Part shown: in pieces, positions 1 to 21,094 of the stretch
How the letters are laid out: each line of letters opens with the position of its first letter
Position numbering within the stretch: the stretch's first letter is position 1
Assembly: GCA_021789935.1 (NCBI GenBank)
Contig: JAJYIR010000015.1
Span: forward strand, 1 to 57,031
Direction: 5' to 3'
Source of the DNA: Nitrospirota bacterium
Lineage (GTDB): Bacteria; Nitrospirota; Thermodesulfovibrionia; Thermodesulfovibrionales; JdFR-88
DNA length: 57,031 nt
Translations under genes and position numbers: made by a program
Notes under the pieces: generated by a model
What the model saw: the letters and a program-made list of their open reading frames with translations, nothing else
What the model was told of the DNA's origin: nothing
Databases searched by the model: none

Positions 1-821
1 GAGCCAAACCTTTCGAAAAGCGAGGATGCGATTACCGGCATGGGAACACCCGCCTCTATCGCCGCTTCCACAGTCCAGCGTCCTTCGCCCGAGTCTTCCA
101 CATAACCCTCTATAAGGGAGAGGTCCCTGTCTTTCTTAAAAGCGTCCTCCGCAAGCTCCAAAAGCCATGACCTTATGACGCTGCCCCGATTCCACAGGTG
201 GGCCAATTTTGAAAAATCCAGCCCCTCTCCATATTGCGATGCCTTTATGAGGGCAAACCCCTCACCATAGGCCTGCATCATCCCGTACTCTATCCCGTTG
301 TGCACCATTTTCACGAAGTGCCCGGATGAGACCTGCCCGCAGTGCATATACCCTTCGGGCGGAGCAAGGGTCTTGAAGACGGGCTCAAGCCGGCGGAATA
401 GTTTCCTGTCCCCGCCAATCATCAGGCAATAACCTTCCTTGAGCCCCCAGATGCCGCCGCTTACCCCCGCGTCCATATAGTTCAAGCCCATCGGCCTGAG
501 CTCCGTTTCACGCCGCTGGTCGTCTTTGTAATGGCTGTTCCCGCCGTCTATTATGGTGTCTCCTTTTTTAAGCAGCCCCTTCAGCCCGTTTATGGTTTCG
601 TCAACGGGTTTTCCCGCTGGCACCATAATCCAGACTGCCCTTGGAGGGGCAAGCAGGCTGGCAAGCTCTTCGAGTGAGGACGCGCCCTTCGCCCCGAAGG
701 CCGCTGTTTCCTTCACCTTTTCGGGGCTCCTGTCGTAAACCACGACCTTGTGCCGCCCCTTCATAAGCCGCCTGACCATGTTCTGGCCCATTTTCCCAAG
801 CCCTATCATTCCTATCTGCAT
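1..821 (-). CDS. gnd: 6-phosphogluconate dehydrogenase (decarboxylating), 3' end outside window
   Basis: Oxidises and decarboxylates 6-phosphogluconate to ribulose 5-phosphate with reduction of NAD(P)+; cytoplasmic. About 273 residues are visible from the ATG at 821, which is preceded by AGGGGAAGGTG. Seen: an N-terminal dinucleotide motif (GLGKMG, residues 8-13), GGNSHYKD, the substrate loop GVSGGIWG, and GHFVKMVHNGIEYG carrying the expected catalytic Lys and Asn. The spacing fits the short (about 300-residue) bacterial class rather than the 470-residue enzyme, so only a few tens of residues should be missing beyond base 1. It is the last visible gene of the rpiB-zwf-pgl-gnd operon, 63 bases after pgl. 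Identity is secure; the C-terminus cannot be judged. Confidence 0.95.
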   Translation of the reverse strand, partial: MQIGMIGLGKMGQNMVRRLMKGRHKVVVYDRSPEKVKETAAFGAKGASSLEELASLLAPPRAVWIMVPAGKPVDETINGLKGLLKKGDTIIDGGNSHYKDDQRRETELRPMGLNYMDAGVSGGIWGLKEGYCLMIGGDRKLFRRLEPVFKTLAPPEGYMHCGQVSSGHFVKMVHNGIEYGMMQAYGEGFALIKASQYGEGLDFSKLAHLWNRGSVIRSWLLELAEDAFKKDRDLSLIEGYVEDSGEGRWTVEAAIEAGVPMPVIASSLFERFG

Positions 822-884
822 GGTTTTTTCACCTTCCCCTGAAAACTTTTTCCGTTTTTATACAAACTTCCCGAGGTTTTTTCA

Positions 885-1634
885 TCACATCTTCCTGTAC
901 CGTCCTGCCGGCAGTCTGCCTGCGGCTGCGGAATCGGCCAGGAAAAGGAGCGCCCCGTTTTCCGGATTTATTGCGGAAGCGGGCAATGCCGGAGCGCCTT
1001 TTTCAACCAGGCGTTCCAGGACCTCTGCCTTCCGCTGCCCTGTAACAAGGAAAAAAACATTTTTAGCGCTGTTTAAGACCGGGTAGGTCAGCGTTACCCT
1101 GCCATGCCTTTGTCCATCCGGGACAGCCGCGGTGAAGCTCTCTTTTTCCCTTAACGCATCTGAACCGGGGAAAAGAGAGGCCGTATGGCCGTCTTCTCCC
1201 AGTCCCAGGAGCACGAGATCAAAGACCGGCATGCTCCCTTTTTGAGGCCTGAAGAAGGCAGAAAGTTCTGATGCGTATCTTTCGGCGCAAAGCTCCGGAG
1301 GGCCGTCCGTGGGGACGGAATGAATATTTTCCCGCGGGATAGGGGCTTTACTGAAAAGGGTCTCGTCCATCATCCTGAAGTTGCTGTCCATACTGTCCGG
1401 CGGCACCAGCCTCTCGTCCACCATGAATATGTGAGTACCGGGCCAAAGAGACGGCTCCCCGAACAGGGCAAGCTTCCGGTAAAAACCCGCAGGTGTCCCC
1501 CCACCTGACAGCGCGGCGGCAAATATGCCCTTCCGGCTTACCGCCTCGCGGGCTGTCTCCGTCCACCTTCCAACCAAGAAATCTTCCAGGGAGGAGACTT
1601 TATCAAAAACCAGTATATGGGCGGCCCTTGCCAT
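885..1634 (-). CDS. pgl: 6-phosphogluconolactonase
   Basis: Hydrolyses 6-phosphogluconolactone to 6-phosphogluconate, the step between zwf and gnd. The 249-residue protein is the usual size for the DevB/SOL type. Seen: ALSGGGTP near residue 42 (phosphate-binding loop), VDERLVPP followed by SNFRMM, and the family signature LLGLGEDGHTASLFPG. The start ATG at 1634 has AAGGTG upstream. It lies 34 bases after zwf and 63 before gnd on the same strand, so co-transcription is expected. No unusual features. Confidence 0.95.
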   Translation of the reverse strand: MARAAHILVFDKVSSLEDFLVGRWTETAREAVSRKGIFAAALSGGGTPAGFYRKLALFGEPSLWPGTHIFMVDERLVPPDSMDSNFRMMDETLFSKAPIPRENIHSVPTDGPPELCAERYASELSAFFRPQKGSMPVFDLVLLGLGEDGHTASLFPGSDALREKESFTAAVPDGQRHGRVTLTYPVLNSAKNVFFLVTGQRKAEVLERLVEKGAPALPASAINPENGALLFLADSAAAGRLPAGRYRKM

Positions 1635-1668
1635 TAAACTGCACCTTCATCCATACCGGAGGGGAAAA

Positions 1669-3216
1669 TCAGATAGTAAGCCAGCGCCGCTCCTCCGACT
1701 CCACAAGCGCCTGGGCCTCCAGCGGCCCCCAGGAGCCTGCGGCATAGTTCGGGAAATCCTTTGGTGGAATGCTTTCCCACCTTGAGATTATCGGGTCCAC
1801 GATCTCCCACATGGCCTCGACGGAGTCCTGTCTTACAAAAAGGGACAGGTCCCCTTTCGCGCAGTCCAGAAGCAGGCGTTCGTAAGGGTCCGGCACTTTA
1901 ACCTTGAACATGTCCCGGTAGTCAAAAACCATGTTCACCTGGTACAGTTCGTCCATTGAATACGGATACTTGACGCAGAATTTGAGGGATATCTTCTCAT
2001 CAGGCTGGATGGTGAAAACGAGGATATTGGGCTCAAGGGCATCGCTTGGTTTTCCAAACAGCCTGAGCGGCAACTGTTTGAACTGGATGCATATCTCCGT
2101 TACTCGCTTTGCCATGCGCTTGCCGGTGCGCACATAGAACGGCACACCCGCCCACCTCAGGTTGTCCACATGGAACCGTGCCGCTAAAAAGGTGGGCTGC
2201 AAAGAGACGGGCGCCACATTTTTTTCCTGTCTGTAACCCGGCGCCGTCTGGCCATTAATGCGTCCGGGGCCGTATTGCCCGCGTACGGTGAACCTGTCCA
2301 CGTGATAAGCGTCCATAATACGGATGGAATTAAAGACCTTGGTCTTCTCGTCCCTCACGTAATCGGCGCTGAAGCCTACCGGGGGCTCCATGGCTATAAG
2401 CCCGATTAGCTGGAGCATATGGTTCTGCACAATGTCTCTTACAACCCCGGTCTGTTCGTAGAAGGAGCCCCTGTGCTCTATTCCTATATCTTCAGCAACG
2501 GTGATCTGCACGTTGTCCACATAGTTTCTGTTCCATATCTGCTCGAATATGAAATTGGAGAACCTGAAAAAAAGTATGTTCTGCACCGGCTCCTTGCTCA
2601 GATAATGGTCAATACGGTATATCTGGCACTCGTCGAAGGCGTCAATGAGTATATGATTAAGTTCCTTTGCGCTCTGGCGGTCATGCCCGAAGGGTTTTTC
2701 GACAATGATCTTGGCGTTAAACGGCCCTTTGCAGAGATTGTACCTTTTGAGCTTCGAGACAATGCCGGGCACGGCGGAGGGCGGCACCGCCATGTAGAAT
2801 ATCACGTTTATGCCCCCCTGCGAGTCCGGCATCGATATCTCCTCTACCCGCTGGCAGAGCTCTTTGTATTTAAGGTCGTCTTCGAAACGGGCAGGCAGGC
2901 AATAAAGATGGGTGCTGAAATCCTGCAGCTTCTTCTCGTCCGGCGGGGTCTCGTCGAATTGCCTTATGCCTTCCTCTATCTGGGTGCGGTACTGCTTATC
3001 GCTCATCTCGGGCATCCCGAAAGAAAGGACAGAAAAACCGCTTGCAAGCTCTCCGGATTCGAAAAGGTGCAGGAGGCCGGGCATGAGCTTTCTCCTGCTC
3101 AGGTCGCCACTGCCGCCGAAAATGCACATTGTAAAAGGCTCTGTCCTGAGCTCCTTCAAATCCACAACGCATTTTTTAAGGAGGTCTCTTTCTATCTGAG
3201 GCCCGGTCGTGATCAT
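1669..3216 (-). CDS. zwf: Glucose-6-phosphate 1-dehydrogenase
   Basis: Oxidises glucose 6-phosphate to the lactone with NAD(P)+, the entry step of the oxidative pentose-phosphate route. The 515-residue length is typical. Seen: nucleotide loop GGSGDLSRRKL (residues 34-44), the EKPFGHD segment, and the substrate/catalytic motif RIDHYLSKEPVQN. The usual form is RIDHYLGKE, so here Gly is replaced by Ser; the catalytic His and Lys remain. The ATG at 3216 follows GGGGGAG at good spacing. It lies 23 bases downstream of rpiB and 34 upstream of pgl, in one operon driven from the promoter at 3739-3766. Confidence 0.96.
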   Translation of the reverse strand: MITTGPQIERDLLKKCVVDLKELRTEPFTMCIFGGSGDLSRRKLMPGLLHLFESGELASGFSVLSFGMPEMSDKQYRTQIEEGIRQFDETPPDEKKLQDFSTHLYCLPARFEDDLKYKELCQRVEEISMPDSQGGINVIFYMAVPPSAVPGIVSKLKRYNLCKGPFNAKIIVEKPFGHDRQSAKELNHILIDAFDECQIYRIDHYLSKEPVQNILFFRFSNFIFEQIWNRNYVDNVQITVAEDIGIEHRGSFYEQTGVVRDIVQNHMLQLIGLIAMEPPVGFSADYVRDEKTKVFNSIRIMDAYHVDRFTVRGQYGPGRINGQTAPGYRQEKNVAPVSLQPTFLAARFHVDNLRWAGVPFYVRTGKRMAKRVTEICIQFKQLPLRLFGKPSDALEPNILVFTIQPDEKISLKFCVKYPYSMDELYQVNMVFDYRDMFKVKVPDPYERLLLDCAKGDLSLFVRQDSVEAMWEIVDPIISRWESIPPKDFPNYAAGSWGPLEAQALVESEERRWLTI

Positions 3217-3239
3217 TAATTAAATCTCCCCCGTTTGAA

Positions 3240-3695
3240 TCATTTGAAAAATTCACGCTCCATTGACTTTACCTTGTTCAACCTGCGCAGATGCCGCTGC
3301 GCCCCGGAAAATCCGGCATTCAGGAAGACCCTTACCGCCTCCCTGGCCGCGCCCGCCCCGACAATGCGTTCCCCAAGGCAAAGCACGTTCATATCGTCGT
3401 CCTCGACACCCTGCCTGGCTGAAAAAACGTCATGGCAGACAGCGGCCCTGATGCCCTCAAACTTGTTTGCCGCAACCCCGGCGCCAACCCCGCTGCCGCA
3501 AATAAGAATGCCCCTTGAGGCCTGCCCCTGCTGTATCGCCCTGGCCACGGCGCCGGCGAAATCCGGGTAATCGTCACCCGGTTCAAGGCTGTAGGCGCCG
3601 CAGTCCATTACATCATGGCCCATACCCGTGATGAACTCCATCATTATTTTTTTAAGCGCAAAACCGCCGTGGTCGGCGCCTATCGCCAGCTTCAC
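3240..3695 (-). CDS. rpiB: Ribose-5-phosphate isomerase B
   Basis: Interconverts ribulose 5-phosphate and ribose 5-phosphate (LacAB/RpiB fold). I place the start at GTG 3695, giving 151 residues beginning VKLAIGADHGG, because AAGGGGGCG sits just upstream and 150 residues is the family size. An in-frame ATG at 3752 would add 19 residues, but it lies inside the promoter and upstream of its predicted transcription start. Seen: GADHGG, DYPDFA, ICGSGVGAGVAANK with the active-site Cys, and NVLCLGERIVG. It is the first gene of the pentose-phosphate operon. Its place with zwf, pgl and gnd supports a ribose-phosphate role rather than an allose role. Confidence 0.95.
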   Translation of the reverse strand: MKLAIGADHGGFALKKIMMEFITGMGHDVMDCGAYSLEPGDDYPDFAGAVARAIQQGQASRGILICGSGVGAGVAANKFEGIRAAVCHDVFSARQGVEDDDMNVLCLGERIVGAGAAREAVRVFLNAGFSGAQRHLRRLNKVKSMEREFFK

Positions 3696-3738
3696 AAATC
3701 GCCCCCTTTGGACATAGCAGAAAAATCCCTTCCCGCAC

Positions 3739-3766
3739 ATTGTATCATGCATACCTCCGGTGTCAA
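3739..3766 (-). promoter_or_regulatory. Sigma70-type promoter for rpiB-zwf-pgl-gnd
   Basis: Read on the minus strand, a consensus -35 box TTGACA (3761-3766) is followed after 16 bases by TACAAT (-10, 3739-3744), five of six to consensus. Transcription would begin near 3732 and leave about a 37-base leader before the GTG of rpiB, with the Shine-Dalgarno AAGGGGG in it. This also argues against the longer rpiB reading frame. The boxes are seen directly; activity is inferred. Confidence 0.75.
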
Positions 3767-3865: not shown

Positions 3866-4576
3866 TTATTTCTCGATGTCCGGCTTGAACCTGTACCCGA
3901 TGCCTGGCTCATTTATAAGGAACCGGGGCCTGGCCGGGTCGGCTTCCAGCTTGTGCCTGAGCTGGGTCATGTAGACCCTCAGGTATTGGGTCTGATGGGC
4001 ATAACTGGGCCCCCACACCTCTTTCAGCAAGTGGCTGTGAGTAAGCACTTTCCCGGCGTTTCCCGCAAGCAGAGAAAGCAGTTTGTATTCAATGGGCGTG
4101 AGATGGACTTCATCACCGCCAATGAACACCTGTCTTTTTGATAGGTCTATCTTCAGGTCTCCTGCTATAATGACCGATTCTCTCTGCCCCGACCTCTGAA
4201 TGGCCCTGTGCCTCATTGCCACTCGTATCCGGGCAAGCAGTTCGCCGGAGCCAAAGGGTTTTATCAGATAATCGTCCGCCCCCTCATCCAGCGCGCTGAC
4301 CTTGTCCATTTCCTTATCTCTCGCGGAAATGACTATGATAGGGATGTTGCTCCATTCCCTGAGCCTTTTCGTCACATCGAGACCGTCCATATCGGGCAGC
4401 CCCAAGTCAAGCAATATGACATCAGGGTTCCGTAGGGCGGCCTCTCTGAGCCCTTCCTCTCCCGTACCGGCCTCTGTCACATCATATCCCTGTCCCTGCA
4501 GGACCAGCCGGATAAAACGCCTCATCTGCGGCTCATCCTCAATAAGGAGGATGACCTCTTTATGTTCCGCCACCAT
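3866..4576 (-). CDS. kdpE: KdpE, OmpR-family response regulator of K+ uptake
   Basis: Cytoplasmic transcription factor that activates kdpFABC when phosphorylated by KdpD. The 236 residues comprise a receiver domain (about 7-120; acidic pocket IEDE, phospho-acceptor Asp57 in LLDLGLPDMDG, Lys in IKPFGSGEL) and a winged-helix DNA-binding domain (about 135-230; LTPIEYKLLSLL, then YLRVYMTQLRHKLE). Its ATG directly abuts the kdpD stop codon, so the pair is translationally coupled and last in the operon. Gene order and KdpD-KdpE pairing make the assignment firm. Confidence 0.95.
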   Translation of the reverse strand: MVAEHKEVILLIEDEPQMRRFIRLVLQGQGYDVTEAGTGEEGLREAALRNPDVILLDLGLPDMDGLDVTKRLREWSNIPIIVISARDKEMDKVSALDEGADDYLIKPFGSGELLARIRVAMRHRAIQRSGQRESVIIAGDLKIDLSKRQVFIGGDEVHLTPIEYKLLSLLAGNAGKVLTHSHLLKEVWGPSYAHQTQYLRVYMTQLRHKLEADPARPRFLINEPGIGYRFKPDIEK

Positions 4577-7264
4577 CTACCTTTCCTGTTCCGGCTCAGG
4601 CATCGGGGGTTGTTGCCCCACGGGCAGAGTAAACCTGAAAACAGCCCCGCCCCCCGGACGGTTTTCAGCCCAGATGTGCCCTCCATGGGCCCCGATAATG
4701 GCCTGGCAGATCGCAAGCCCCAGCCCAATGCCTCCTCCCGCGCCGTGAACGAATTTTTCAAATATCTTCTTTTCCTCCCCATCCGGTATGCCCGGACCAT
4801 GGTCGGCAATATCAAACAGCAGGAAGTCCCCGTCCATCCTTGCCCGCAGGTCAATGGGGGTGCCCTCCGGCGTGTACTTTATGGCGTTATCCAAAAGGTT
4901 CATCATGGTCTGCTCAATAAGAAGCGGGTCGAACGGGACAAGAGGCAGGCCGTCAGGAACGTTCACATTTACCTGGCGGCCCTTGAGCCGCTCTGACAGG
5001 CGGTTAAGCACCACTCCGACTATTTCCTCGATGGACTGCCATTCTTTTTTCAGACTTATGGCCTTGGCCTCCAGGCGGGTCATGTCAAGGACGTTCTTTA
5101 TTATCTGGTTAAGACGCTCCGCTTCCTCCTGTATGGTCCGGACAAGTTCCTGTCTGCCGTGCGTGGAGAGTGAGATGTCCTTTCCCAGCAGCGCGGTTGC
5201 CGCCCCGGTAATCGCGGCAAGCGGGGTGCGCAGGTCATGGGATACGGAACTCAAAAGGGTGCTCCTCAAGGCCTCGGCCTCAGCCCTCAGAAGCGCCTGC
5301 TGGGCCTCCTGGGCCAGCAGCGTCCTGTCTACGGCCATCGCTATCTGGTTTGCAAAGCTTTCAAGCACATGTATCTGGTCGTGATCAAACGGGCCTGTCT
5401 GGCTGGAAGGCATAACACCCAGCACACCCACCGTTCTGGAAGACGTGGTAAGCGGGATGTACAGCGCCTCCGCCCCTGAAAGCGTGTCGGTGCCCACCCC
5501 CGCCTCGCTACGGTGATCGAAGGCCCATTGGGCCACCCCCATCTCATTCTGGTCGAGGACAAAAGTCTCGGGCCCGGTAACCGGGGCAACCAGTTTGCCA
5601 TGCTCATCGGGCACCAGTATAACGACATGGCTGGAAAAAAGTTCGCTCAAGCGCTTTATGGCAACGATGCAGGTCCTGTCGATCCCGCGTTCATGCACCA
5701 GTTCCCTGCTCAGGCTGTAAAGCGCGGCTGTCCTTCGCTCCCTCGCCCTGGAGGAATCCGCCTGCCGGCGTATCCGCAAGGTCATCCTGCTTATAACCAG
5801 CGCAACCACGAACATGACAATGAACGTGAAAAAATATTTCACATCGCTCACCGCAAAGGTATATCTTGGAGGGACGAAAAAGAAATCGAATGCCGAGACG
5901 CTGAGGAAGGTCGCAAGGATGGATGGCCCCTTCCCGGCCCGGCTTGAGACCACGACAATGCCCAGCATATAAACCATGGCGATATCTATGGGGGTAAAAT
6001 AGGGGGACAGAAGAAAGGCGACGCCGGAAGTGACCGCTACCCCCGCAAGGCCCGTGGCCCAATCTTTCCAGTCCGGCGAAGGGCGGGCGGCGGGTTTCGC
6101 TATGTGTCGTGCCACCGGCTCTCCCGTGTCTCCGGTAATGACATAGATGTCAATCTCCCCGCTGCCCCGCACGATCTCATCAAGCATGGAGCCAAAGACC
6201 TTGTCTTTCCAGCGCGGATGGGTGGGCTTGCCGACAAGTATCTTTGTCACATTCATTGACCGCGCGTAATTTAATATCTCCTCGCTCGCCTTGTTCCCGG
6301 AAAGGGTCACAGTCTCGGCCCCAAGGCTTTCGGCCAGGCGCATATGTTCCGCAAGCTGCCTCAGATCGTTCTCTGAAGGTTTTACCTTATGCGGCGCTTC
6401 GACATAGGCCGCCATAAGTTGCCCTCTCAAGCCGGCAGCCATGAGCTTGGCGGCCCGTATCAGACGGATCGAACGCGGGTTTGGCCCCACGCAAACCAAA
6501 ATCCTCTCACCCGCCGGCCATACTTCCTTGACGCCCTTGCCAAGCCTGTAGCTGCGCATCTGCTCATCAACGCTCTCCGCCGTCCGGCGGAGCGCAAGTT
6601 CCCTGAGCGCAAGCAGGTTCCCCTTACGGAAGAAGTTTTCCCCGGCCTTCGCCGCCAGTTCCGTCAGATATACCTTTCCCTCCCTTAGCCGCCTTAAAAG
6701 GTCTTCCGGCGGAAGGTCAATGAGCTCTATATCGTCGGCCCGGGCCAGGAGGAAGTCCGGCACCGTTTCGCGCACGATAATACCGGTTATCTGGGCGACG
6801 ATGTCATTCAGGCTCTCAAGGTGCTGCACGTTAAGCGTGGTATATACGTTGATGCCGGCCCCGAGGAGCTCATAAATATCCTGCCAGCGTTTTTTGTGGC
6901 GGGAACCGGGAGCATTGGTGTGGGCAAGCTCGTCCACAAGGATTACGGATGGTTTGCGGGCAAGGGCCGCATCCAGATCGAATTCTTTTAATTTGGTGCC
7001 GCGATATTCGAGTTCGCGGCGGGGCAGGACATCAAGCCCTTCAAGGAGCGCCTCCGTCTCCTTCCGGCCATGGGTCTCTGCAATACCTATAACGACATCC
7101 ACTCCCTCCGCGCGTTTCTGTCTTGCGGCATCGAGCATGGCATAGGTCTTGCCGACACCGGGTGCGGAGCCGAAGAATATCTTTAATTGCCCCTCCCGGC
7201 TGCGCTCTTCTTCCCTGCGCACCCTCTCCAGCAGGTCCTCAGGACTGGGCCTTCGTTCCTCCAC
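4577..7264 (-). CDS. kdpD: KdpD, osmosensitive K+ channel sensor histidine kinase
   Basis: Inner-membrane kinase/phosphatase that controls KdpE in response to K+ limitation. 895 residues, full length. Domains in order: KdpD N-terminal domain with Walker A GSAPGVGKT (32-40) and DELAHTNAPGS; a USP-like domain (about 252-375); four closely spaced membrane helices (about 403-498); a GAF-type region (about 520-650); HisKA with His676 in SVSHDLRTPL; and a HATPase domain (DNAIKYTPEG, GPGIPDGEE, GIGLGLAICQAI). The start is GTG at 7264, with AAGGAG nine bases upstream. It lies 126 bases after kdpC, the widest gap inside this operon, so a separate promoter for kdpDE is possible. Confidence 0.96.
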   Translation of the reverse strand: MEERRPSPEDLLERVRREEERSREGQLKIFFGSAPGVGKTYAMLDAARQKRAEGVDVVIGIAETHGRKETEALLEGLDVLPRRELEYRGTKLKEFDLDAALARKPSVILVDELAHTNAPGSRHKKRWQDIYELLGAGINVYTTLNVQHLESLNDIVAQITGIIVRETVPDFLLARADDIELIDLPPEDLLRRLREGKVYLTELAAKAGENFFRKGNLLALRELALRRTAESVDEQMRSYRLGKGVKEVWPAGERILVCVGPNPRSIRLIRAAKLMAAGLRGQLMAAYVEAPHKVKPSENDLRQLAEHMRLAESLGAETVTLSGNKASEEILNYARSMNVTKILVGKPTHPRWKDKVFGSMLDEIVRGSGEIDIYVITGDTGEPVARHIAKPAARPSPDWKDWATGLAGVAVTSGVAFLLSPYFTPIDIAMVYMLGIVVVSSRAGKGPSILATFLSVSAFDFFFVPPRYTFAVSDVKYFFTFIVMFVVALVISRMTLRIRRQADSSRARERRTAALYSLSRELVHERGIDRTCIVAIKRLSELFSSHVVILVPDEHGKLVAPVTGPETFVLDQNEMGVAQWAFDHRSEAGVGTDTLSGAEALYIPLTTSSRTVGVLGVMPSSQTGPFDHDQIHVLESFANQIAMAVDRTLLAQEAQQALLRAEAEALRSTLLSSVSHDLRTPLAAITGAATALLGKDISLSTHGRQELVRTIQEEAERLNQIIKNVLDMTRLEAKAISLKKEWQSIEEIVGVVLNRLSERLKGRQVNVNVPDGLPLVPFDPLLIEQTMMNLLDNAIKYTPEGTPIDLRARMDGDFLLFDIADHGPGIPDGEEKKIFEKFVHGAGGGIGLGLAICQAIIGAHGGHIWAENRPGGGAVFRFTLPVGQQPPMPEPEQER

Positions 7265-7390
7265 CTAATATTTCTCCTTTATCTGACAGCATGTCCTTTG
7301 CAGAGATATTCATATATATTACTCTCCCCGATGACCAAAAAAGTGCATGCAAACGAAGGCCGCGCGTAATCGGAGACCATTAAAATCTTT

Positions 7391-7969
7391 TTATTTTTTC
7401 ATTTCATCCAGCGCCAGATTCAGCTTCAGCACGTTTACGGCGGGCTCTCCGAAAATACCCATGAACCTCCCCGCAGTGTTTGCGCTTATCAGGGCGAGGA
7501 CTTTCGCCTTGTCCAGGCCCCTTGCCCTGGCGACCCTGCCCGCCTGGTAGAGGGCGGCGGCCGGGGTTATGTACGGGTCCAGTCCGCTTCCGGAGGAAGT
7601 CACGAGGTCCACTGGTATGGGGTAATGGTTCCCGGGGCCGGCCGCCTGCAATGCATCAATGCGCGACCGCACCTCCCGCAACAAGGCCGGGTTGTTGGGC
7701 CCCAGGTTGGACCCGGATGACAAACCCCCATTATACGGGTAAGGGGCCGTCGCCGACAGCCTCCCCCAGAAATATCCGGGACCGCCAAACTGCTGGCCCA
7801 CTAGCGCGGAGCCCACGGGCTTGCCTTCTTTCATGATGATGCTGCCGTTTGCCCGCACCGGGAAAACGGCCTGTGAAATCCAGGTGATGGCGAGAGGGTA
7901 AATTATCCCGGTGAGGACACTGAGCACAACCAGCGACATTACGGCGTTTTTTATCATTTTTATAGACAT
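7391..7969 (-). CDS. kdpC: KdpC, K+-transporting ATPase subunit C
   Basis: Small single-span subunit that stabilises the KdpFABC complex and aids ATP binding. The 192 residues have an N-terminal membrane helix (about 10-33), then conserved segments [23 protein letters not shown] and the C-terminal [16 protein letters not shown]. The ATG at 7969 has GGAGG upstream. It is 18 bases downstream of kdpB. Complete, with family-typical length. Confidence 0.96.
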
Positions 7970-7987
7970 TTTTTATTTTCCTCCGTT

Positions 7988-10069
7988 TCAGGCAAGGTGC
8001 ATAGCCGTTACAAGCATGTCTATGAGCTTAATGCCTATAAACGGCACTATTAGCCCGCCCACACCGTATATAAGGGCGTTATTGCGCAGCACAATCTGCG
8101 CACCGAGAGGTTTGTACTTGACGCCGCGCAGCGCAAGCGGGATCAAAAAGATAATTATCAGCGCGTTGAAGATAACCGCGGACAAAACGGCGCTCTCCGG
8201 GGTGGCGAGGTGCATTATGTTGAGCGCGCCAAGGGCCGGGTAGATGGAGATGAACGCCGCCGGCAGGATGGCGAAATACTTTGCCACGTCGTTGGATATG
8301 CTGAAAGTGGTCAGCGTTCCCCTGGTCATAAGCAGCTGTTTGCCTATCTCAACGATCTCTATGAGCTTTGTGGGATTGGAGTCCAAATCCACCAGGTTCC
8401 CGGCCTCTTTGGCGGCCTGGGTGCCCGTGTTCATGGCAACCGCGACATCGGCCTGGGCCAGAGCGGGGGCATCATTGGTGCCGTCGCCCGTCATCGCCAC
8501 CAGCCTTCCCCCGGCCTGGTGCTCGCGTATGAGTTTGAGCTTGGTCTCGGGGGTTGCCTGGGCAAGGAAATCGTCCACCCCTGCCTCCGCCGCAACAGCC
8601 GCAGCGGTAAGCGGATTGTCCCCGGTGATCATGATGGTCTTTATGCCCATCTGCCTCATCTCGGCGAACCGCTCCTTTATGCCGCCTTTTACTATATCGT
8701 TCAGGCGGATAACGCCCAGCACCCTTTTGCCTTCAGCCACGACGAGCGGCGTGGCCCCCTGCCTTGCCACATCATCCACTATCCGGCGCACTTCCGCGGG
8801 GAATGTCCCTCCCTCTTTCTGGATATATGTTTCCACCGCATCGGCCGCCCCCTTGCGGATCTCCCTGCCGTCCATGTTCACTCCGCTCATTCTCGTTTGG
8901 GCGCTGAACTCCACGAAATGGGCGCCCAGGGCATGAATGTCACGTTCCCGAAGAGCATATTTTTCCTTGGCCAGGACAACGATGCTCCTGCCCTCCGGCG
9001 TTTCGTCGGCCAGGGATGAAAGCTGGGCGGCGTCAGCAAGGACGTGATCGTCCACTCCGGGGGCCGGGATGAACATGGTTGCCTGGCGGTCGCCGAGGGT
9101 TATCGTGCCCGTTTTGTCCAGAAGAAGCACGTCAACATCTCCAGCCGCTTCGACGGCCCGCCCGGACATGGCTATTACGTTTGCCTGGATCATGCGGTCC
9201 ATGCCGGCAATGCCTATGGCAGAAAGCAGTCCGCCGATCGTGGTGGGGATAAGGCAGACAAGAAGCGACACAAGCACCGTCATGGTAACCGGGCTGCCGT
9301 GCCCGGCGGCCTTCACGCTGAATATCGAAAAAGGCAACAGGGTCGCGGTCACCAGAAGAAAGACAATAGTGAGGCCGGCAAGCAGTATGTCCAGCGCGAT
9401 CTCGTTTGGCGTCTTCTGGCGCTTCGCGCCCTCCACCATGCTTATCATCCTGTCCAGGAAGGTCTCGCCGGGATTCGAGGTGACCCTTATGACAAGCCAG
9501 TCGGAAAGCACCATAGTCCCGCCCGTAACGGCGCTCCGGTCGCCCCCCGACTCCCTTATTACGGGCGCGCTTTCGCCCGTTATGGCGCTTTCATTCACCG
9601 AGGCGACACCCTCTATGACCTCTCCGTCCATCGGGATGAGGCCGCCAGCCTCCACCAGGACCACATCCCCTTTCTTGAGCTGCGAAGATGAGACCATCTC
9701 GGCTCCGGAATCTCTCTGCGGTTTGGCCAGGCGTTTGGCCATGACGTCCTGCCTTGTCTTTCTAAGCGCGTCGGCCTGGGCCTTCCCGCGCCCCTCCGCC
9801 ATGGATTCCGCGAAGTTGGCAAAGAGCACCGTTACCCATAACCAGATCGAAATCTGGAGTATGAAACCCGGGGAGGCCTCGCCCCTTCCGGTGATAACGG
9901 CATGGAAGAAAAGAGCTGTAGTTAGGACGCTCCCAACCTCCACAACGAACATCACGGGGTTTTTGATCTGGTGAACGGGATTCAGCTTCTTCACCGAATC
10001 CCACATGGCCCTGCGCATTATCCTTGGTTCAAAAAGGGACCTTTTGCTTTTTTCTTTTTTCTTGCTCAT
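7988..10069 (-). CDS. kdpB: KdpB, P-type ATPase catalytic subunit
   Basis: Catalytic P-type ATPase of the K+ pump. I use ATG 10069 (693 residues, starting MSKKKEK); an in-frame TTG at 10090 lacks a ribosome site. Seen (numbering from ATG): TGES actuator loop (164-167), phosphorylation motif DKTGTIT (from 318), the nucleotide-domain MITGDNP, hinge [12 protein letters not shown], and the KdpB-specific C-terminal block starting [18 protein letters not shown]. Seven membrane helices are expected. It lies between kdpA and kdpC in the standard order. Confidence 0.97.
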
Positions 10070-10115
10070 GATCTCCGGATCCTGTTTCAAAAATTTATCG
10101 AACTGTTAAAAATCA

Positions 10116-11912
10116 TCAGTGCGTCAACATTTCCGCTATGGGCCCAAGCGCAAGGCTTGGCATGAACGCAAGCGCTCCCACTATCACTATTACCCCTATC
10201 AGGAACACAACGAACAGGGGCGTATGTGTCGGCAGCGTCCCCAGCCCCGCGGGCACATGCTTCTTTTTGGCCAGCGAACCCGCGATGGCGAGCACCGGGA
10301 TAATCACCCAGAAACGCCCAAAAAACATGAGGATGCCGCCAATGGTATTGTAGAAAACCGTGTTCCCGTTAAGGCCTGCAAAGGCGCTGCCGTTGTTGTC
10401 CGCAAAGGACGAAAAGGCATAGAGCACCTCGGAAAACCCGTGCGGGCCGGGATTGGATATGCCGGCTGTGCCGGCCTTCGTCGAGACAGCGATGGCCGTG
10501 CCTATTTTGATCAGCGCATTTACAATAAGCACCACAAAGGCGGCCATTTTCATCTCGAATATCTCTATTTTCTTCCCAAGGTACTCAGGTGTCCGGCCCA
10601 CCATAAGTCCCGCTACAAATACGGTGATTATGGCAAATATGATCATCCCGTAAAGGCCGGAGCCCACGCCCCCGAATATGACCTCTCCAAATTGCATGAG
10701 CAGCATGGGCACCATGCCCCCGAGCGCGGTATAGGAATCGTGCATGGAGTTGACAGAACCGTTTGAAGCCGCTGTGGTCCAGGCGGCCCAGACCGCGGAG
10801 CCGGCTATGCCGTTGCGCACTTCCTTGCCTTCCATGTTGCCGCCCGGCTGAAGGGCGCTTGCCGCCTGGTCTATCCCCATGGAGGCAAAATGCGGATTGC
10901 CCGCCTGTTCGGCCGAAGCGCAAAGAAACGTAAGCGGCGCAAGCACAAGCATCATGGCGATAAGCAGGGCCCATCCCTGCCTTCTGTCGCCAACCATTTC
11001 CCCGAAGGTAAGACAGAGCGCGGCCGGAATAAGAAGTATCGCCAGGCACTCAAGGAAATTTGAAAAAGGCGTGGGGTTTTCCAGCGGATGGGCTGAATTG
11101 GCATTGAAAAATCCCCCGCCGTTCGTTCCCAGCTGTTTTATGGCGATCTGGGAGGCCGCCGGGCCAAGAGGTATCTGCTGCCCACCGGCACGCGCCTCCT
11201 CCGTAACAGGGTTGCCCTTTGAGTCCATAACGGGATTGCCATGGGCGTCAAGCTTGGGGGTTTCATAAGTTACCGCCTGGGTTAAAGCGACTGTCTTGTA
11301 TTTATCAAAGCTCTGCACAACCCCCTGGGACACCAGGAGAAACGAATAAAGCACGGACAGCGGCAGGAGGATATACAAAACGCCGCGGGTCATGTCCACC
11401 CAGAAATTGCCGATCGTGTTTACGGAATGTCTCTTGAACCCGCGAATAAGGGCAACGAGCACCGCCATCCCGGCCGCCGCCGACACGAAGTTTTGCACCG
11501 TCAGCCCGGCCATCTGAGTAAAATAACTGAGCGTCGATTCCCCTCCATAGTTCTGCCAGTTTGTATTGGTTGCAAAGCTTATGGCCGTATTGAAGGACAG
11601 GTCCGGCGCCACCGCGGGAAACTTCTGAGGATCAAGCGGAAGAGAGCCCTGGAAGCGCTGCAGCAGATAAACAGCAAACACTCCCGCCGCACTAAACAGA
11701 AGAACCGCTAACGCATATTGTTTCGAGCTCATCTCCTCTTCCGGCTGGATTCCGCAGAGCCGGTAGAAAAGGCGTTCTACCGGGCCCAGGGCACGGGCCA
11801 GGATGGAGGGCCGGCCTTCGTAAACCCCGGCCATGAACATCCCAAGCGGTTTTGCAAGCAAAACCAGGACGGCAAAATATGCCGCGATCTGCAACACATC
11901 GTTTCCGCTCAT
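10116..11912 (-). CDS. kdpA: KdpA, K+-binding channel-like subunit
   Basis: Membrane subunit that binds and translocates K+ (SKT superfamily). The start is taken at ATG 11912 (598 residues, MSGNDVLQI), which overlaps the kdpF stop codon in ATGA and follows CCGGAG; the longer frame from 11987 would run through kdpF. Selectivity-filter-like segments seen: TNTNWQNYGGES, GTNGGGFFNANSAHP and DNNGSAFAGL. Ten or so hydrophobic helices are present. A hydrophilic insert rich in Lys, Asn and Pro near residues 230-255 (HGNPVMDSKGNPVTEEA) is a small direct repeat in an external loop. Confidence 0.96.
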   Translation of the reverse strand: MSGNDVLQIAAYFAVLVLLAKPLGMFMAGVYEGRPSILARALGPVERLFYRLCGIQPEEEMSSKQYALAVLLFSAAGVFAVYLLQRFQGSLPLDPQKFPAVAPDLSFNTAISFATNTNWQNYGGESTLSYFTQMAGLTVQNFVSAAAGMAVLVALIRGFKRHSVNTIGNFWVDMTRGVLYILLPLSVLYSFLLVSQGVVQSFDKYKTVALTQAVTYETPKLDAHGNPVMDSKGNPVTEEARAGGQQIPLGPAASQIAIKQLGTNGGGFFNANSAHPLENPTPFSNFLECLAILLIPAALCLTFGEMVGDRRQGWALLIAMMLVLAPLTFLCASAEQAGNPHFASMGIDQAASALQPGGNMEGKEVRNGIAGSAVWAAWTTAASNGSVNSMHDSYTALGGMVPMLLMQFGEVIFGGVGSGLYGMIIFAIITVFVAGLMVGRTPEYLGKKIEIFEMKMAAFVVLIVNALIKIGTAIAVSTKAGTAGISNPGPHGFSEVLYAFSSFADNNGSAFAGLNGNTVFYNTIGGILMFFGRFWVIIPVLAIAGSLAKKKHVPAGLGTLPTHTPLFVVFLIGVIVIVGALAFMPSLALGPIAEMLTH

Positions 11913-12001
11913 GAAAATATCTCCGGCTTCAATAACGCTATCACCAGGTATGCCAAAAGGCATGCCGTCACAATACCGCCTATCCAATAAAAAATATGCA
12001 T
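11909..12001 (-). CDS. kdpF: KdpF, small K+-ATPase subunit
   Basis: A 30-residue reading frame starting at ATG 12001 and ending in TGA 11909-11911, overlapping kdpA by four bases. The product is one membrane helix (WIGGIVTACLLAYLVIALL) followed by KPEIF, which matches the classic KdpF pattern of a Gly-Gly helix and a KPE/RPE tail. GGGGAG lies eight bases before the ATG. KdpF lies at the KdpA-KdpB interface and stabilises the complex. It is easy to miss because of its size. Confidence 0.9.
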   Translation of the reverse strand: MHIFYWIGGIVTACLLAYLVIALLKPEIFS

Positions 12002-15368: not shown

Positions 15369-18300
15369 TTAGCGGTAACGGCCTTTCGAGGTGTGCAGGC
15401 ATGTGCCGGAAAATATGAGCCCGGTGGCCCCATCGATGCTTATGGGCGCTCCCTCGGAAATAGTGGAAGCCCCTATGCGGGCATAGGGCCGGCCTTCGCG
15501 TGATGCCTCGAAACTCAAATCCTTGCAGCCTACGATTGCGGTCAGACCGAATTTTTGGGCAAGCACGGAGGCATGGGACGTGGCCCCGCCGGCGGACGTT
15601 ATTATCCCGCCTATGTCTGTCATAAGGGAGACGTCGTTCGTGCTGGCCGAATGGCGCAGGATAATTACCGGAAGTCCCGTTTCGCGGCCCAGCTCTCTTA
15701 TCGCTTCCGGGGAGAAGGAAAAAGAGGCCACCCCGCTCAAAGCGCCCCCGTGCACCCCGATGCCCCTGCCGATCACCCTGGGTTCCATCCTGCATATCTC
15801 TTCAAATCGCGGGATGAACCCGGAGTCAAAGAACTCCATGCGTCTGGCCTGAAGCACGTAGATCTTTCTCTCTCCGTCAGTTTTGCAATACGTGATCTCC
15901 ACTTCCTGGGGAAGACCGCCCAGGGCATCTTCAATCCGCCGCGACAGGTCCTCAAACATCCTGAAAAGCTCCGGGTCGCTCTCTTCGAGGCTTAAAAAAT
16001 TCTCCCCGCCGTCCCCGCTCCAGAACATCTCTTTCTGTTTTCTTGAGATCGGCCTGTTCGTGCGGGCCCCGTAAACAAGGTCGTCGCCGGTGGCCGTCTC
16101 CCTTGTCTCCCCGTACACCTCCCTTTCCATTGTGGCGGGGTCCCTCGTAAAAAAAACGGACGCGCCGGAGCCCGGCTGGTTGCCGTATACCATCTGCATG
16201 AGGGTGACCGATGTTCCCCACCGGCGGGACATGCCCGTAAACCTGGCAAACTGCGCGGACCTCTCGCCATGCCACGAGGCATACACCGCTTTTACGGAAT
16301 TTTTCAGCTGTTCATAAACATCATCGGGGATAGAAAGGCCCATGCCGGAGAGCGCCTCAAGATATGCCCCGGCAATGCCGCTTACCTGCTCTTCGCCCAG
16401 CCGCTCCAGTGAGGAGGAGCCGCTATTTTCCAGAAAAACCTTTTTTATGTCCTCAAATATCCCTGGGGCCAGCCCCAGGACATCCCTGCCATAGTGTTCG
16501 ATAAACCTCCTGTATGAATCCCAGGCAAGCCATGGGTTGCCGGTTTCCTGAATGAATCCCTTCAAGGTCACGGGATTCATTCCGCAGTAAAGGATGGATG
16601 TAAGGATGCCGGGCATGGATATATAAGAGCCGCTTCTTACCGAAAGAAAAAGCGGTTTCCCCGGCCCGCCGAAAACCTTCCCTGTTTTCTCCTCTATCTT
16701 ACTGACTGCCTTTTTAAGGGCTTTCATGAAATCCTCACTGTCCGTATAGCTCATATAATCTTCCGTATGCCTGGAAGAAAATACAACCCCCGGCGGCACG
16801 GCAAAACCCCTGTTCTCAAGATATGCCAGGTTTTTGGCCTTGCCCCCGATAAGCGGAGAAAGCCTCATCGCGCCCTCATCGCCCAGCCCGCCGATCTCAA
16901 AAAAATCCGCCGTCTCCCAAGGTATATGGAGATTGAAGGCGGCGTCTCCCACGCTCTCCAGATGGGCAGAAAGCCTGCCTGCCACCGCGTCTATGAGTCT
17001 GTCCGTCTCGGTGAAACCCGGAAGGCCCGCCATCATGTCCCGGATTATAATATCTGACGCCTTGTCCACGAAATCCAGGTCTTTCGGGTCCAGGTTTGAG
17101 AGGTAATCAGGCAGTTCATCTGAAGGAAAGGCCTTAAGGACGCGGCCCAGCGGGACAAGGAACTTTTTGCCGAAGGATTCCACGGCCCACTTCAACTCCT
17201 TCTGCCAGATACGGAGCATATCCAGGGCCTGGCTGATAAAAAGCCTGTTTGTCCTGAAAATCCCTGAGAGCTCCTCCACCTGGAAATCCTCAATGCCGTG
17301 AAGACCCAGAATGTTGTTTATCTGCCCGAGCGCGTTTGTCCACCGGCCGGGATATTCCCATGCCTTTACCGCCTCCCCGGATGGCCCAGCGGCAGGTCCG
17401 CCCCGCTCACGGGATTTTTCCTCTCTGGAGATGTCCGTGACTATCCCCTCCATCAATATCCTCGCCCTTTCCCCCACCCTTAAAAAATCCGCCAGGGCGT
17501 CAAATTTCTCCTCTCGATATGTGCCGAGCACCGAAGGGATGCCAAAAGCTATGTGCCTTTTGAAATACAGGTTCTCTACCGGCTCTGTAATTACGGGGGA
17601 AAGAAACGTTTTTTTAAGGGTCCCCATCTTTTCCAGGCATTCCCCTACCGCGGAATACAAATCCTGCACTTCAGGGGAAAGGCCGGAGGAAGGGCCGCTG
17701 TAAGGAAGGGAATATTTTTTCACGATCTCCTGGTATATCCTGCATAGCAGGAAAACCTTCGAGCGTATCTCCCGGGGGGCTTTTATCTTTTCGATCTCCT
17801 TGTTCAGCAGTTCCCCGGGTATCTCCATGAGTTTGGTGAACAGAATTTTTCCGCTTTTCCCGTTTCCCTCATCAAACAACACACCCAACGCCTCGAAAAA
17901 AGGTTTTATGACCCTGTGGCAGCCTTCCATCAGCCCTTTGTTAAGGTTCCGGAAGACGTCGGATGGCACGAGCGCCTCAAGCAGGCCCGGCTCGTTTTCC
18001 ACCCATGCCTTTATGATCCCCTCCGTAAGGCGTATATTGTAGTTGCTGGCGTTGACGTGGACCTGTTTCCTTAAAAAATAGAGCACGGGGTCATTTCCCC
18101 AGGAGTCCACCTGGGTTGTATAGTCCCTTATCCGGCTTGCCGCACCGATCTCGCTGAAATACACGGGAAGCATCCTTAAAAGCAGATAGTTCGGGAGAAA
18201 ATCCCCGCGCATCGCCTGCGAATTGAGATACCCGGAGACGCGCCGCTGGAAAAGCCTGTCATCAGGAATGAAAATGCCGCTCACATGCAGGTTGCATATG

Positions 18301-19901
18301 AGGTGCGCCTTTACATCCTCCAGGCCGTCTTCCGAAACGGAAAGGACATCCAGAAACCGCGAAAGGACATCCAGGTGCAGAGGATTTGCGGTCTCGGCCC
18401 ACGTGTCGGTGGAATAGCCGCGAATCCCCGGCGGCGGCACCAGTATCCCCTGTATAAGCTCGCGGTAAAGTGAGACAAGCCCTTTATCTTCAGAGCCCAG
18501 GATGAGGGCGGCAATGTCCTTGTTGAGGATTATTTCATTTTTCAGGCCCCTGCCCTCGAACCTGCCTCCCGGTTCCGCGGCCTTTGCGAGAAGACCCGCG
18601 CAGAGATCGGTCCGGCCGGTCTTTATGAGCCTTTGCATTAACTCTGCCGTGCCCGTCATGAGGTCTTTGCCCGCGCCTGAGACCTCCGCCGCCGGAAAAA
18701 AGAAACTCAAAAGCTCAAGCAGCGCCTGCGTGAATGCCGGGGCGCTTTCCGCGAAAAGATGCCCCCTTGCGATATCAAAAAAACTCCTTATCGTCTCCCG
18801 TCCGTCAAGGAAGGATTCAATATCCGCTTTTGCAGCTCCAATTTTAAGCAGGCATTCCTTCATCCGGCCTTTCCCGGCAAGGACGCGGACTTCTTCTATC
18901 AGGGCAAGAAGCCTGTCGCGCCCACTCTGCCCCCATTTTTCAATTCCCTGAAAGGAAAAAGCGCCCTCCGGCACAAAAAACTTCCTGATGCCGTCCAAAG
19001 TGCCCTCTGAAAAAATTGGGACACCCTCCACACTGCGGCGCAGAGAGGCCAGGAGGGCTGAAAAATGGGGCCTTATGTCCGCCTCCGGAACTCTTTCATT
19101 TACCATGGAAAACACCTTTATGGCCTGCCCCGTCCTGCGGGAGAGGTCAGCGCGAGCCCCCCCTAGGGCATCCAGCCACAGTTGCACTGGATTGCGCAGC
19201 CTTTCCGCCGAGAGCTCCTTTGAAAGCGGAAGCCCTATCAGGTCCAGACAGTTTTCCACCGGTTTTTCCGCCATCCCGTCATGTCCGTTTTTTTCAAGCG
19301 CGAGGAAAGTGAATTTTGCCAGTATCCCGAAGACCAGGTAAAAAACCTCCCGCTCTCCCCAGAAGAGGTCCGTCGCGAACCCGTGGAGCTCGTCCGAAAA
19401 TTTTCTCCAGTCCTTTTTTGCGGAAAGGATTTTGTAGATCACATCTTCGGCCTTGCTCAAAAGTCCCGGCTTACCCTTGAGCGAGAGGGTGAGCAGCTTG
19501 AGATCCACACCTTTCACCTCATCCGAAAGCTCTACCGCCGGGGTATAAAAAACTCCGGACTTTTCCCTTTTGATCAGGAAGGTGCCGATATGCCTGCCGT
19601 TTTGAAGGACATCGATCTGCAGGTCTTTGGCCTCCATTACAGGTCCGCTGCCGGCCAGCATCTCAAAGGCCCCGTTTTCTGTTATGGGGCAACGGGCAAG
19701 CTCCACCCCTTCCTGTATCAGGGAGGCCTGGTAACTGCCCTCCGGCATGGACAGGATGGCGCCTTTAAGGATGGCGGATCCGTCCTGCCGGCAGATGCAG
19801 AAATCCTTTACCACCAGGGAGGTGATTACGCCCTTATATGCCGTGGCAAGGGTGCCCACAAGATAATCCAGACTGCAAATCATGTATGACTGTCCGGCCA
19901 T
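15369..19901 (-). CDS. PPDK-like ATP-grasp/phosphohistidine protein with large unknown N-terminal region
   Basis: 1510 residues. From about 1010 the sequence follows pyruvate phosphate dikinase: GGKAKNLAYL and VPPGVVFS, SVRSGSYISMPGILTS (about 1087-1102), the SGASVFFTRDPAT block, and a tail EVEITY...YVLQARRME. A swivelling phosphohistidine domain follows, with GGATSHASVLAQKFG (probable phospho-His1443) and IDGATGLIFSG. The protein ends about 68 residues after that His, so the PEP/pyruvate-binding TIM barrel is missing. Residues 1-1000 are mostly helical with no domain I recognise, with a possibly beta-rich start. It could phosphorylate itself from ATP, but the acceptor is unknown; glucan water dikinase and rifampin phosphotransferase are distant analogies only. 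Single gene, with a candidate promoter at 19945-19973. Confidence 0.8.
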   Translation of the reverse strand: MAGQSYMICSLDYLVGTLATAYKGVITSLVVKDFCICRQDGSAILKGAILSMPEGSYQASLIQEGVELARCPITENGAFEMLAGSGPVMEAKDLQIDVLQNGRHIGTFLIKREKSGVFYTPAVELSDEVKGVDLKLLTLSLKGKPGLLSKAEDVIYKILSAKKDWRKFSDELHGFATDLFWGEREVFYLVFGILAKFTFLALEKNGHDGMAEKPVENCLDLIGLPLSKELSAERLRNPVQLWLDALGGARADLSRRTGQAIKVFSMVNERVPEADIRPHFSALLASLRRSVEGVPIFSEGTLDGIRKFFVPEGAFSFQGIEKWGQSGRDRLLALIEEVRVLAGKGRMKECLLKIGAAKADIESFLDGRETIRSFFDIARGHLFAESAPAFTQALLELLSFFFPAAEVSGAGKDLMTGTAELMQRLIKTGRTDLCAGLLAKAAEPGGRFEGRGLKNEIILNKDIAALILGSEDKGLVSLYRELIQGILVPPPGIRGYSTDTWAETANPLHLDVLSRFLDVLSVSEDGLEDVKAHLICNLHVSGIFIPDDRLFQRRVSGYLNSQAMRGDFLPNYLLLRMLPVYFSEIGAASRIRDYTTQVDSWGNDPVLYFLRKQVHVNASNYNIRLTEGIIKAWVENEPGLLEALVPSDVFRNLNKGLMEGCHRVIKPFFEALGVLFDEGNGKSGKILFTKLMEIPGELLNKEIEKIKAPREIRSKVFLLCRIYQEIVKKYSLPYSGPSSGLSPEVQDLYSAVGECLEKMGTLKKTFLSPVITEPVENLYFKRHIAFGIPSVLGTYREEKFDALADFLRVGERARILMEGIVTDISREEKSRERGGPAAGPSGEAVKAWEYPGRWTNALGQINNILGLHGIEDFQVEELSGIFRTNRLFISQALDMLRIWQKELKWAVESFGKKFLVPLGRVLKAFPSDELPDYLSNLDPKDLDFVDKASDIIIRDMMAGLPGFTETDRLIDAVAGRLSAHLESVGDAAFNLHIPWETADFFEIGGLGDEGAMRLSPLIGGKAKNLAYLENRGFAVPPGVVFSSRHTEDYMSYTDSEDFMKALKKAVSKIEEKTGKVFGGPGKPLFLSVRSGSYISMPGILTSILYCGMNPVTLKGFIQETGNPWLAWDSYRRFIEHYGRDVLGLAPGIFEDIKKVFLENSGSSSLERLGEEQVSGIAGAYLEALSGMGLSIPDDVYEQLKNSVKAVYASWHGERSAQFARFTGMSRRWGTSVTLMQMVYGNQPGSGASVFFTRDPATMEREVYGETRETATGDDLVYGARTNRPISRKQKEMFWSGDGGENFLSLEESDPELFRMFEDLSRRIEDALGGLPQEVEITYCKTDGERKIYVLQARRMEFFDSGFIPRFEEICRMEPRVIGRGIGVHGGALSGVASFSFSPEAIRELGRETGLPVIILRHSASTNDVSLMTDIGGIITSAGGATSHASVLAQKFGLTAIVGCKDLSFEASREGRPYARIGASTISEGAPISIDGATGLIFSGTCLHTSKGRYR

Positions 19902-20206: not shown

Positions 20207-21094
20207 ATGGAAAAAAAGAACGGCCTGGCAATGATTCTTAGCGGCCTTAGAAGAGACCTCCGCTCTTTTATAACCCTCTCATTAAAGGAGAACGAGACAT
20301 CCTGGCAACAGTGGATATCCCGCGTAAAAAGGGATGTCCACGTAAGGTGCTGGGAAATGAAAGGCTGCACCAGGACGGACTGCCCGTCTTACAAGAACAC
20401 CTGCGGACGGTGCTGGCTGATAGCCGGCACCATGTGCGGCGGAAAGCCGCTCGGGGGGTTCGCCTCCAAGTACAAAAGCTGCACGGAATGCGAGGTGTAC
20501 CAGGCGGCTGTCCTCTCCGACCCCATAAATGAGGTGTACGAACACCTGATAACTCTCGTATTCAGCCTGAGGGACAAGCAGCTGGAACTTAAATCTCTGG
20601 CCCTGCACGATGAGCTGACAGGTCTTTTTAACAGGGCCTATTTTGAACTGGTAATCAAACAGGAGGTAAAGAAGGCCAATAGATACGGCGGCGGGTTCAC
20701 GGTCTTTATGATCGACATAGACAATTTTAAATATATCAATGACACTTACGGCCACCTGCATGGGGACGGAATATTGAGGGAATTTGCCCTGATATTAAAA
20801 AATTCGATAAGGGAATCCGACATACTGATCAGATACGGCGGCGATGAATTCATGATAATCAGCCATGGGACCTCCACCCTGGATAACAGCGCCATTGCCA
20901 GCCGCATCAGCCACAGCATATCCCAGTGGAACGGAGAGTACGGGAGCGAGAACTACAGCCTGTCTTTCAGCCACGGCTGCGCGGTCTTCGATAAGAGCAA
21001 GGACTTAAAGGAAGTGCTTGAGGAGGCCGACGCCAGGATGTACAAGAACAAGGAACAAAACAGGCAAAACAGGAAACAAAACTCTTCCTGTTGA
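20207..21094 (+). CDS. Diguanylate cyclase with N-terminal two-CW cysteine domain
   Basis: 295 residues; ATG 20207 follows CGGAGGAA. Residues about 44-100 hold eight cysteines (48, 54, 59, 66, 69, 77, 92, 95) with two Cys-Trp pairs, the two-CW type of domain known from Geobacter-like proteins, probably binding metal or sensing redox state. The cyclase domain (about 135-290) has the active-site motif GGDEF intact at 211-215 and an inhibitory I-site RESD at 202-205, five residues before it. So it should make cyclic di-GMP from GTP and be product-inhibited. No membrane helix or signal peptide is visible, so it is cytoplasmic. It is monocistronic, convergent with nuoN. Confidence 0.92.
   Translation: MEKKNGLAMILSGLRRDLRSFITLSLKENETSWQQWISRVKRDVHVRCWEMKGCTRTDCPSYKNTCGRCWLIAGTMCGGKPLGGFASKYKSCTECEVYQAAVLSDPINEVYEHLITLVFSLRDKQLELKSLALHDELTGLFNRAYFELVIKQEVKKANRYGGGFTVFMIDIDNFKYINDTYGHLHGDGILREFALILKNSIRESDILIRYGGDEFMIISHGTSTLDNSAIASRISHSISQWNGEYGSENYSLSFSHGCAVFDKSKDLKEVLEEADARMYKNKEQNRQNRKQNSSC

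Follow-up and report, generated by a model that had tools for sequence, protein, structure and literature searches.

We analyzed a 57,031-nucleotide stretch of Nitrospirota DNA (the window) and found that one of its genes encodes a homolog of pyruvate phosphate dikinase (PPDK, EC 2.7.9.1; model TIGR01828; 1KBL from Clostridium symbiosum) that keeps the ATP-grasp and phospho-His swivel domains, with their catalytic residues, but ends 67 residues past the phospho-His (His1443), lacks the PEP/pyruvate barrel, and has ~1000 extra N-terminal residues. We think it fairly likely that this protein is a PPDK-derived small-molecule dikinase (ATP to AMP) whose acceptor domain has been replaced and whose acceptor is not pyruvate. 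Judging from gene context, its probable acceptor is either a sugar phosphate or a phospho-acid. The family, in which we distinguish subfamily A (the window type) and subfamily B, is thus probably a kinase that acts in central carbon metabolism and has not been described before. Our literature searches, which reached subscription journals poorly, returned no description of a PPDK-like protein in connection with either GAPDH or Thermodesulfovibrio.

Table 1. Positions in the window of the dikinase homolog, its domains and the pentose-phosphate cluster
Feature	Residues	Position	Strand	Remarks
Whole gene, barrel-less PPDK-type dikinase homolog, subfamily A		15369..19901	minus	1510 aa, ATG start
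Beta-sandwich domain	6-112	19566..19886	minus	Kept in subfamily A, missing in B
Helical region	134-469	18495..19502	minus	Conservation weak
Helical core	470-996	16914..18494	minus	Common to A and B; 26 invariant columns; proposed acceptor domain
PPDK-type ATP-grasp domain	1008-1354	15840..16880	minus	
Phospho-His swivel domain	1375-1500	15402..15779	minus	
GGATSHAS motif	1438-1445	15567..15590	minus	Phospho-His H1443 = PPDK H455
gnd (truncated by window edge), pgl, zwf, rpiB		3..3752	minus	Pentose-phosphate cluster, context only

Conservation of the ATP-grasp and phospho-His domains

Pfam searches of the 1510-residue protein matched PPDK_N at residues 1017-1354 (8e-18) and the His domain PEP-utilizers at residues 1411-1494 (2e-15), and no other family; the motifs SVRSGSYISMPG and GGATSHAS were both found. 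Solved PPDK sequences aligned with residues 1008-1500 (PPDK residues 9-509 of 874), in agreement with the first-pass annotation, which had described the C-terminal ~500 residues as PPDK-like and both the ATP and phospho-His domains as kept. The NCBIfam PPDK model (TIGR01828) was the best-scoring curated model, though members of this family lack the PPDK acceptor site, and its score of 286.7 bits lay below the curated cut-off of 843.45. The predicted structure of residues 470-1510 (pLDDT 87.9, pTM 0.86) matched PPDK (1kbl) with a Z of 43.4 and an rmsd of 2.1 A over 482 residues, the match being confined to residues 997-1510, and this structural alignment gave 32% identity with PPDK residues 1-519.

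The PPDK residues K22, R92, E323, Q335 and H455 correspond to K1021, R1089, E1335, Q1351 and H1443, and these positions did not vary among the 18 A and 39 B sequences compared, apart from a single gap at H455 in subfamily B. R1353 (PPDK R337) was nearly invariant, being Lys in three A members, and the position of PPDK D321 is occupied by E1333, with Glu in every A sequence and in the majority of B sequences. Some subfamily A members read GGVASH instead of GGxTSH, and the T453 position was Ala in five of them; solved PPDK mutants exist for K22, R337 and T453. Two features by which PPDK is recognized, an ATP-grasp domain with ATP-site residues and a swivel domain with the phospho-His in GGxTSH (H1443), were therefore both present. 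Because the catalytic residues are conserved and the fold is PPDK-like, the first half-reaction, from ATP to phospho-His, should work. The swivel domain of the 470-1510 model sits on the ATP domain, and docking on the helical core was not seen in that conformation; the swivel domain of 1KBL is on the ATP side, in state I (PMC5371819).

The longer branches of subfamily A in the tree described below, together with the alanine at the T453 position, might be taken to indicate an inactive or purely regulatory relic. However, all 18 of the A sequences checked retained the His and the principal residues of the ATP site, and a relic seems to us very improbable.

Absence of the PEP/pyruvate barrel

No Pfam match to the C-terminal PEP/pyruvate TIM barrel, which both PPDK and PEP synthase (EC 2.7.9.2) should have, was found in the window protein. 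The annotation had reported this absence and the early stop, and both observations stood, although it had counted 68 residues after the phospho-His where there are 67. It had also raised the possibility of a frameshift that concealed the barrel, which we were able to rule out: the gene ends in a TAA stop, followed by ~175 bases without a family match and then by a substrate-binding-protein-like gene, with no hidden barrel frame, and the same C-terminal end is conserved among the complete homologs checked, in which every chain ends 55-75 residues beyond the GGxTSH motif. The barrel-less architecture with this end was found in about 100 proteins.

An intact ATP and His half could also belong to a split PPDK whose barrel is separately encoded, and two-component dikinases do exist: HpeHI and PpsAB consist of two polypeptides and use aromatic acceptors (PMC12167813). 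The likeness of the window protein to these enzymes lies in the ATP-grasp and swivel mechanism and in a non-pyruvate acceptor (proposed here for the window protein), whereas it is a single chain encoded near sugar-phosphate genes. When its own genome was searched with full PPDK, moreover, only an ordinary 919-aa PPDK at another locus and the window gene matched, so that no isolated barrel was found and a complete PPDK is already present; a split enzyme would also leave the core shared by subfamilies A and B unexplained. We regard this explanation as extremely improbable. With the ATP and His domains intact and the barrel absent, it follows that the acceptor should be a different one, in line with the earlier suggestion that the phosphate could be passed elsewhere.

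Two subfamilies with the same architecture

The relatives with this architecture form two subfamilies. Of 395 genomes from the phylum Nitrospirota, 66 contained relatives of residues 1-1000. Subfamily A comprised 24 distinct relatives, in this sample from Nitrospirota only, that were alike over their full length (36-71% identity among the copies compared, about 1400-1516 aa). Subfamily B, of which about 85 members from many phyla were fetched (about 1250-1530 aa), shared ~25% identity overall with the window protein, the likeness lying mainly from residue 470 onward. When genome contigs were scanned with the shared core, at least 557 loci matched, in Nitrospirota, Desulfobacterota, Acidobacteriota, Bacteroidota, Clostridia and others, and we fetched 80 of them; a search of a plasmid collection gave no match. 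In a FastTree phylogeny of the C-terminal module only, in which deep branches within B were poorly supported, A, B and true PPDK formed separate clades (supports 1.000, 0.997 and 1.000), and A and B came out as sister clades with PPDK as the outgroup. The subfamily A gene of one genome (G351, L051:9717-14122) was read as two ORFs of 802 and 640 aa, probably owing to a frameshift or assembly error.

A helical core as candidate acceptor domain

The first-pass annotation had found no known domain in the N-terminal thousand residues, and our searches agreed. No Pfam family was found in residues 1-1000 of the window protein (ten subfamily A members gave chance-level matches), PDB sequence profile searches gave chance-level matches only, and structure searches, which covered the core only as part of the models of residues 1-1000 and 470-1510, returned generic solenoids as the best matches to residues 1-1000, with no confident match. 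A described N-terminal family, a match to which the annotation had said would refute it, was thus found by none of these three approaches. The predicted structure of residues 1-1000 consists of a beta-sandwich (6-112), for which there were generic fold matches only (beta-glucuronidase-like sandwiches, Z ~7) and no Pfam match, followed by an all-helical region.

The part of this region common to A and B is the helical core (about 485-985), in which 26 columns were invariant across 65 sequences. Many of these are basic, and they include H509, R592, R611, K612, H615, K729, K781, R782, H783 and R954. To our knowledge, every dikinase of this kind has an acceptor domain, and since the barrel is gone, the core appears from sequence comparison to be the best candidate for its replacement. 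Its invariant basic residues would suit an anionic substrate.

We considered whether the window protein might instead be a dikinase of glucan or another polysaccharide, in which the N-terminal beta-sandwich would serve to bind carbohydrate. The plant glucan and phosphoglucan, water dikinases (GWD and PWD) combine a large N-terminal region with ATP/His dikinase chemistry. GWD has an N-terminal starch-binding module (CBM45/CBM20); the sandwich of the window protein has no Pfam match and weak structural matches. Residues 6-112 resemble sugar-hydrolase sandwich domains, and an alpha-glucan phosphorylase gene adjoins two distinct B loci. However, a Z of ~7 is background, the beta-sandwich is missing from subfamily B, and the phosphorylase gene was seen at those two loci only and on the opposite strand. 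The domain order is also reversed, in that the His domain precedes the ATP domain in GWD and PWD and follows it here. A polysaccharide dikinase is, in our judgment, quite unlikely.

Rifampin phosphotransferase (RPH) offers a precedent for a non-barrel acceptor domain, which it combines with an ATP-grasp domain and a C-terminal His swivel (PMC4844700). The window protein resembles RPH in having the ATP-grasp domain and swivel His at its C-terminus, but the order of domains is ATP-acceptor-His in RPH and would be acceptor-ATP-His here, and the ATP/His module is closer to PPDK (Z 43) than to RPH (Z 26). An acceptor domain like the RIF-binding one was absent between the ATP-grasp and swivel domains, where ~20 residues separate 1354 from 1375. 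With neither a barrel nor a domain at this place, the predicted architecture belongs to neither PPDK nor RPH.

Association of subfamily B with a long GAPDH

According to the annotation, gene order gave no obvious partner, a statement that comparison with the relatives did not support: in these, a second GAPDH goes with subfamily B, and loci of subfamily A lie beside pentose-phosphate genes. A long GAPDH (GAPDH2) was directly downstream of the subfamily B gene in 57/70 loci, sharing its strand in 46 and mostly lying less than 100 bp away, and an ordinary-length second GAPDH was upstream of it in 12 loci, these neighbor counts including a few loci duplicated between collections. Among the 395 genomes, B was found in 44 and GAPDH2 in 45, all 44 being shared and one genome having the GAPDH only, so that presence and absence were concordant in 394. 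Because the two genes were on different contigs in three genomes (G140, G152 and G241), the link exceeds mere position. The long GAPDH is mostly 405-495 aa in length, retains the catalytic Cys, His and Arg, and has Gly-Arg in place of the usual Asp at the NAD site, which suggests NADP. It was seen at L055:12295-13512 and about 58 other loci, and the one example scanned scored below all NCBIfam cut-offs. At three Acidobacteriota loci (L094:7161-8744, L102:7123-8796 and L140:1765-3438), an aldehyde dehydrogenase gene was joined upstream of the B gene; its product also scored below all cut-offs, with a weak likeness to GAPN and lactaldehyde dehydrogenase.

This association could mean that a partner protein such as GAPDH receives the phosphate, in a PTS-like relay or a regulatory phosphorylation of His, Asp or Ser, with the helical N-terminus acting as a protein-docking solenoid. 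The N-terminus is mostly helical with generic protein-binding solenoids as its best structural matches, Enzyme I of the PTS has a related swivel domain, and the GAPDH that accompanies B is one particular protein. However, the solenoid matches do not rise above background, and the polar and charged core residues lie in compact motifs (RKQxH, KRHIAxGIPS) that look more like an active site. In addition, the partner GAPDH retains its catalytic Cys, His and Arg and so resembles an enzyme of the same pathway, and subfamily A has no fixed neighbor. We consider phosphorylation of a partner protein unlikely and continue to favor a small-molecule acceptor.

A simple replacement of phosphoglycerate kinase (PGK) by B was ruled out, PGK being present in 59/60 genomes tested. 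Beside a phosphofructokinase-like gene, L153:7231-8562 (G000:C14) encodes a second PGK-like protein of divergent sequence (~443 aa; score against PF00162, 258 bits), and in this sample such proteins were commoner in subfamily A genomes (15/21) than in others (11/39). In two genomes (G261 and G257, 91 and 93% complete), the only PGK found was of the divergent type.

Gene context of subfamily A

GAPDH was a direct neighbor of subfamily A in 0/25 loci, and among the 395 genomes none of those with A only had GAPDH2. Pentose-phosphate genes were instead found, with rpiA 36 bp downstream of the subfamily A gene and followed by gnd in L080, zwf/tkt in L041, tkt-tal-zwf-pgl-gnd in L043/L081, and tkt in L051. 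They lay within 10 kb of 4/24 A loci, vs 0/85 B loci (p = 0.002), in a post hoc comparison that is based on 4 loci and in which flank lengths vary between loci. In the window, gnd-pgl-zwf-rpiB are 11.6-15 kb downstream of the gene on the same strand.

Between the gene and this cluster, the window contains kdpE/kdpD and kdpC-B-A potassium transport genes (3866-11987), and kdpA and kdpB homologs likewise follow the subfamily A gene in the closest relatives. Just upstream of the gene is a divergent diguanylate cyclase with a two-CW domain (20207-21094). A HAD-type phosphatase gene overlaps or abuts the subfamily A gene in two loci (L043:11533-12345 and L045:7719-8543).

Proposed function

In the mechanism that we propose, the ATP-grasp domain would cleave ATP and phosphorylate His1443 of the C-terminal swivel domain, with AMP as the product (with Pi or PPi), and the swivel would deliver the phosphate to the N-terminal helical core rather than to a pyruvate barrel. 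The core would bind an anionic metabolite of the glyceraldehyde-3-phosphate/pentose-phosphate region, as suggested by its conserved Lys, Arg and His residues and by the gene context; the identity of the acceptor and the direction of the reaction are ones that we infer.

We put forward tentatively, and with low confidence, that B (at least) may be a dikinase of 3-phosphoglycerate or a similar phospho-acid, because 1,3-bisphosphoglycerate is the phosphoryl compound that it would share with GAPDH. Such an enzyme would make or use 1,3-bisphosphoglycerate via the phospho-His, with AMP and PPi or Pi, and together with its dedicated GAPDH would form a second, energy-shifted route. Since PGK is also present, this route would be parallel to it, just as PPDK runs parallel to pyruvate kinase. 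Subfamily A would represent a variant acting on the same or a neighboring pentose-phosphate metabolite. Because A has no link to GAPDH, the step from B to A is indirect, and a triose- or pentose-phosphate or phospho-acid acceptor for the window protein itself is more tentative still.

Only GAPOR and GAPN are named as variations at the GAPDH/PGK step in a review (PMC8100219). The co-occurrence of B and GAPDH2 opens the question of the acceptor to direct test, and should a sugar phosphate or 3-phosphoglycerate prove to be that acceptor, the family would be an unrecognized enzyme central to the metabolism of many anaerobes.
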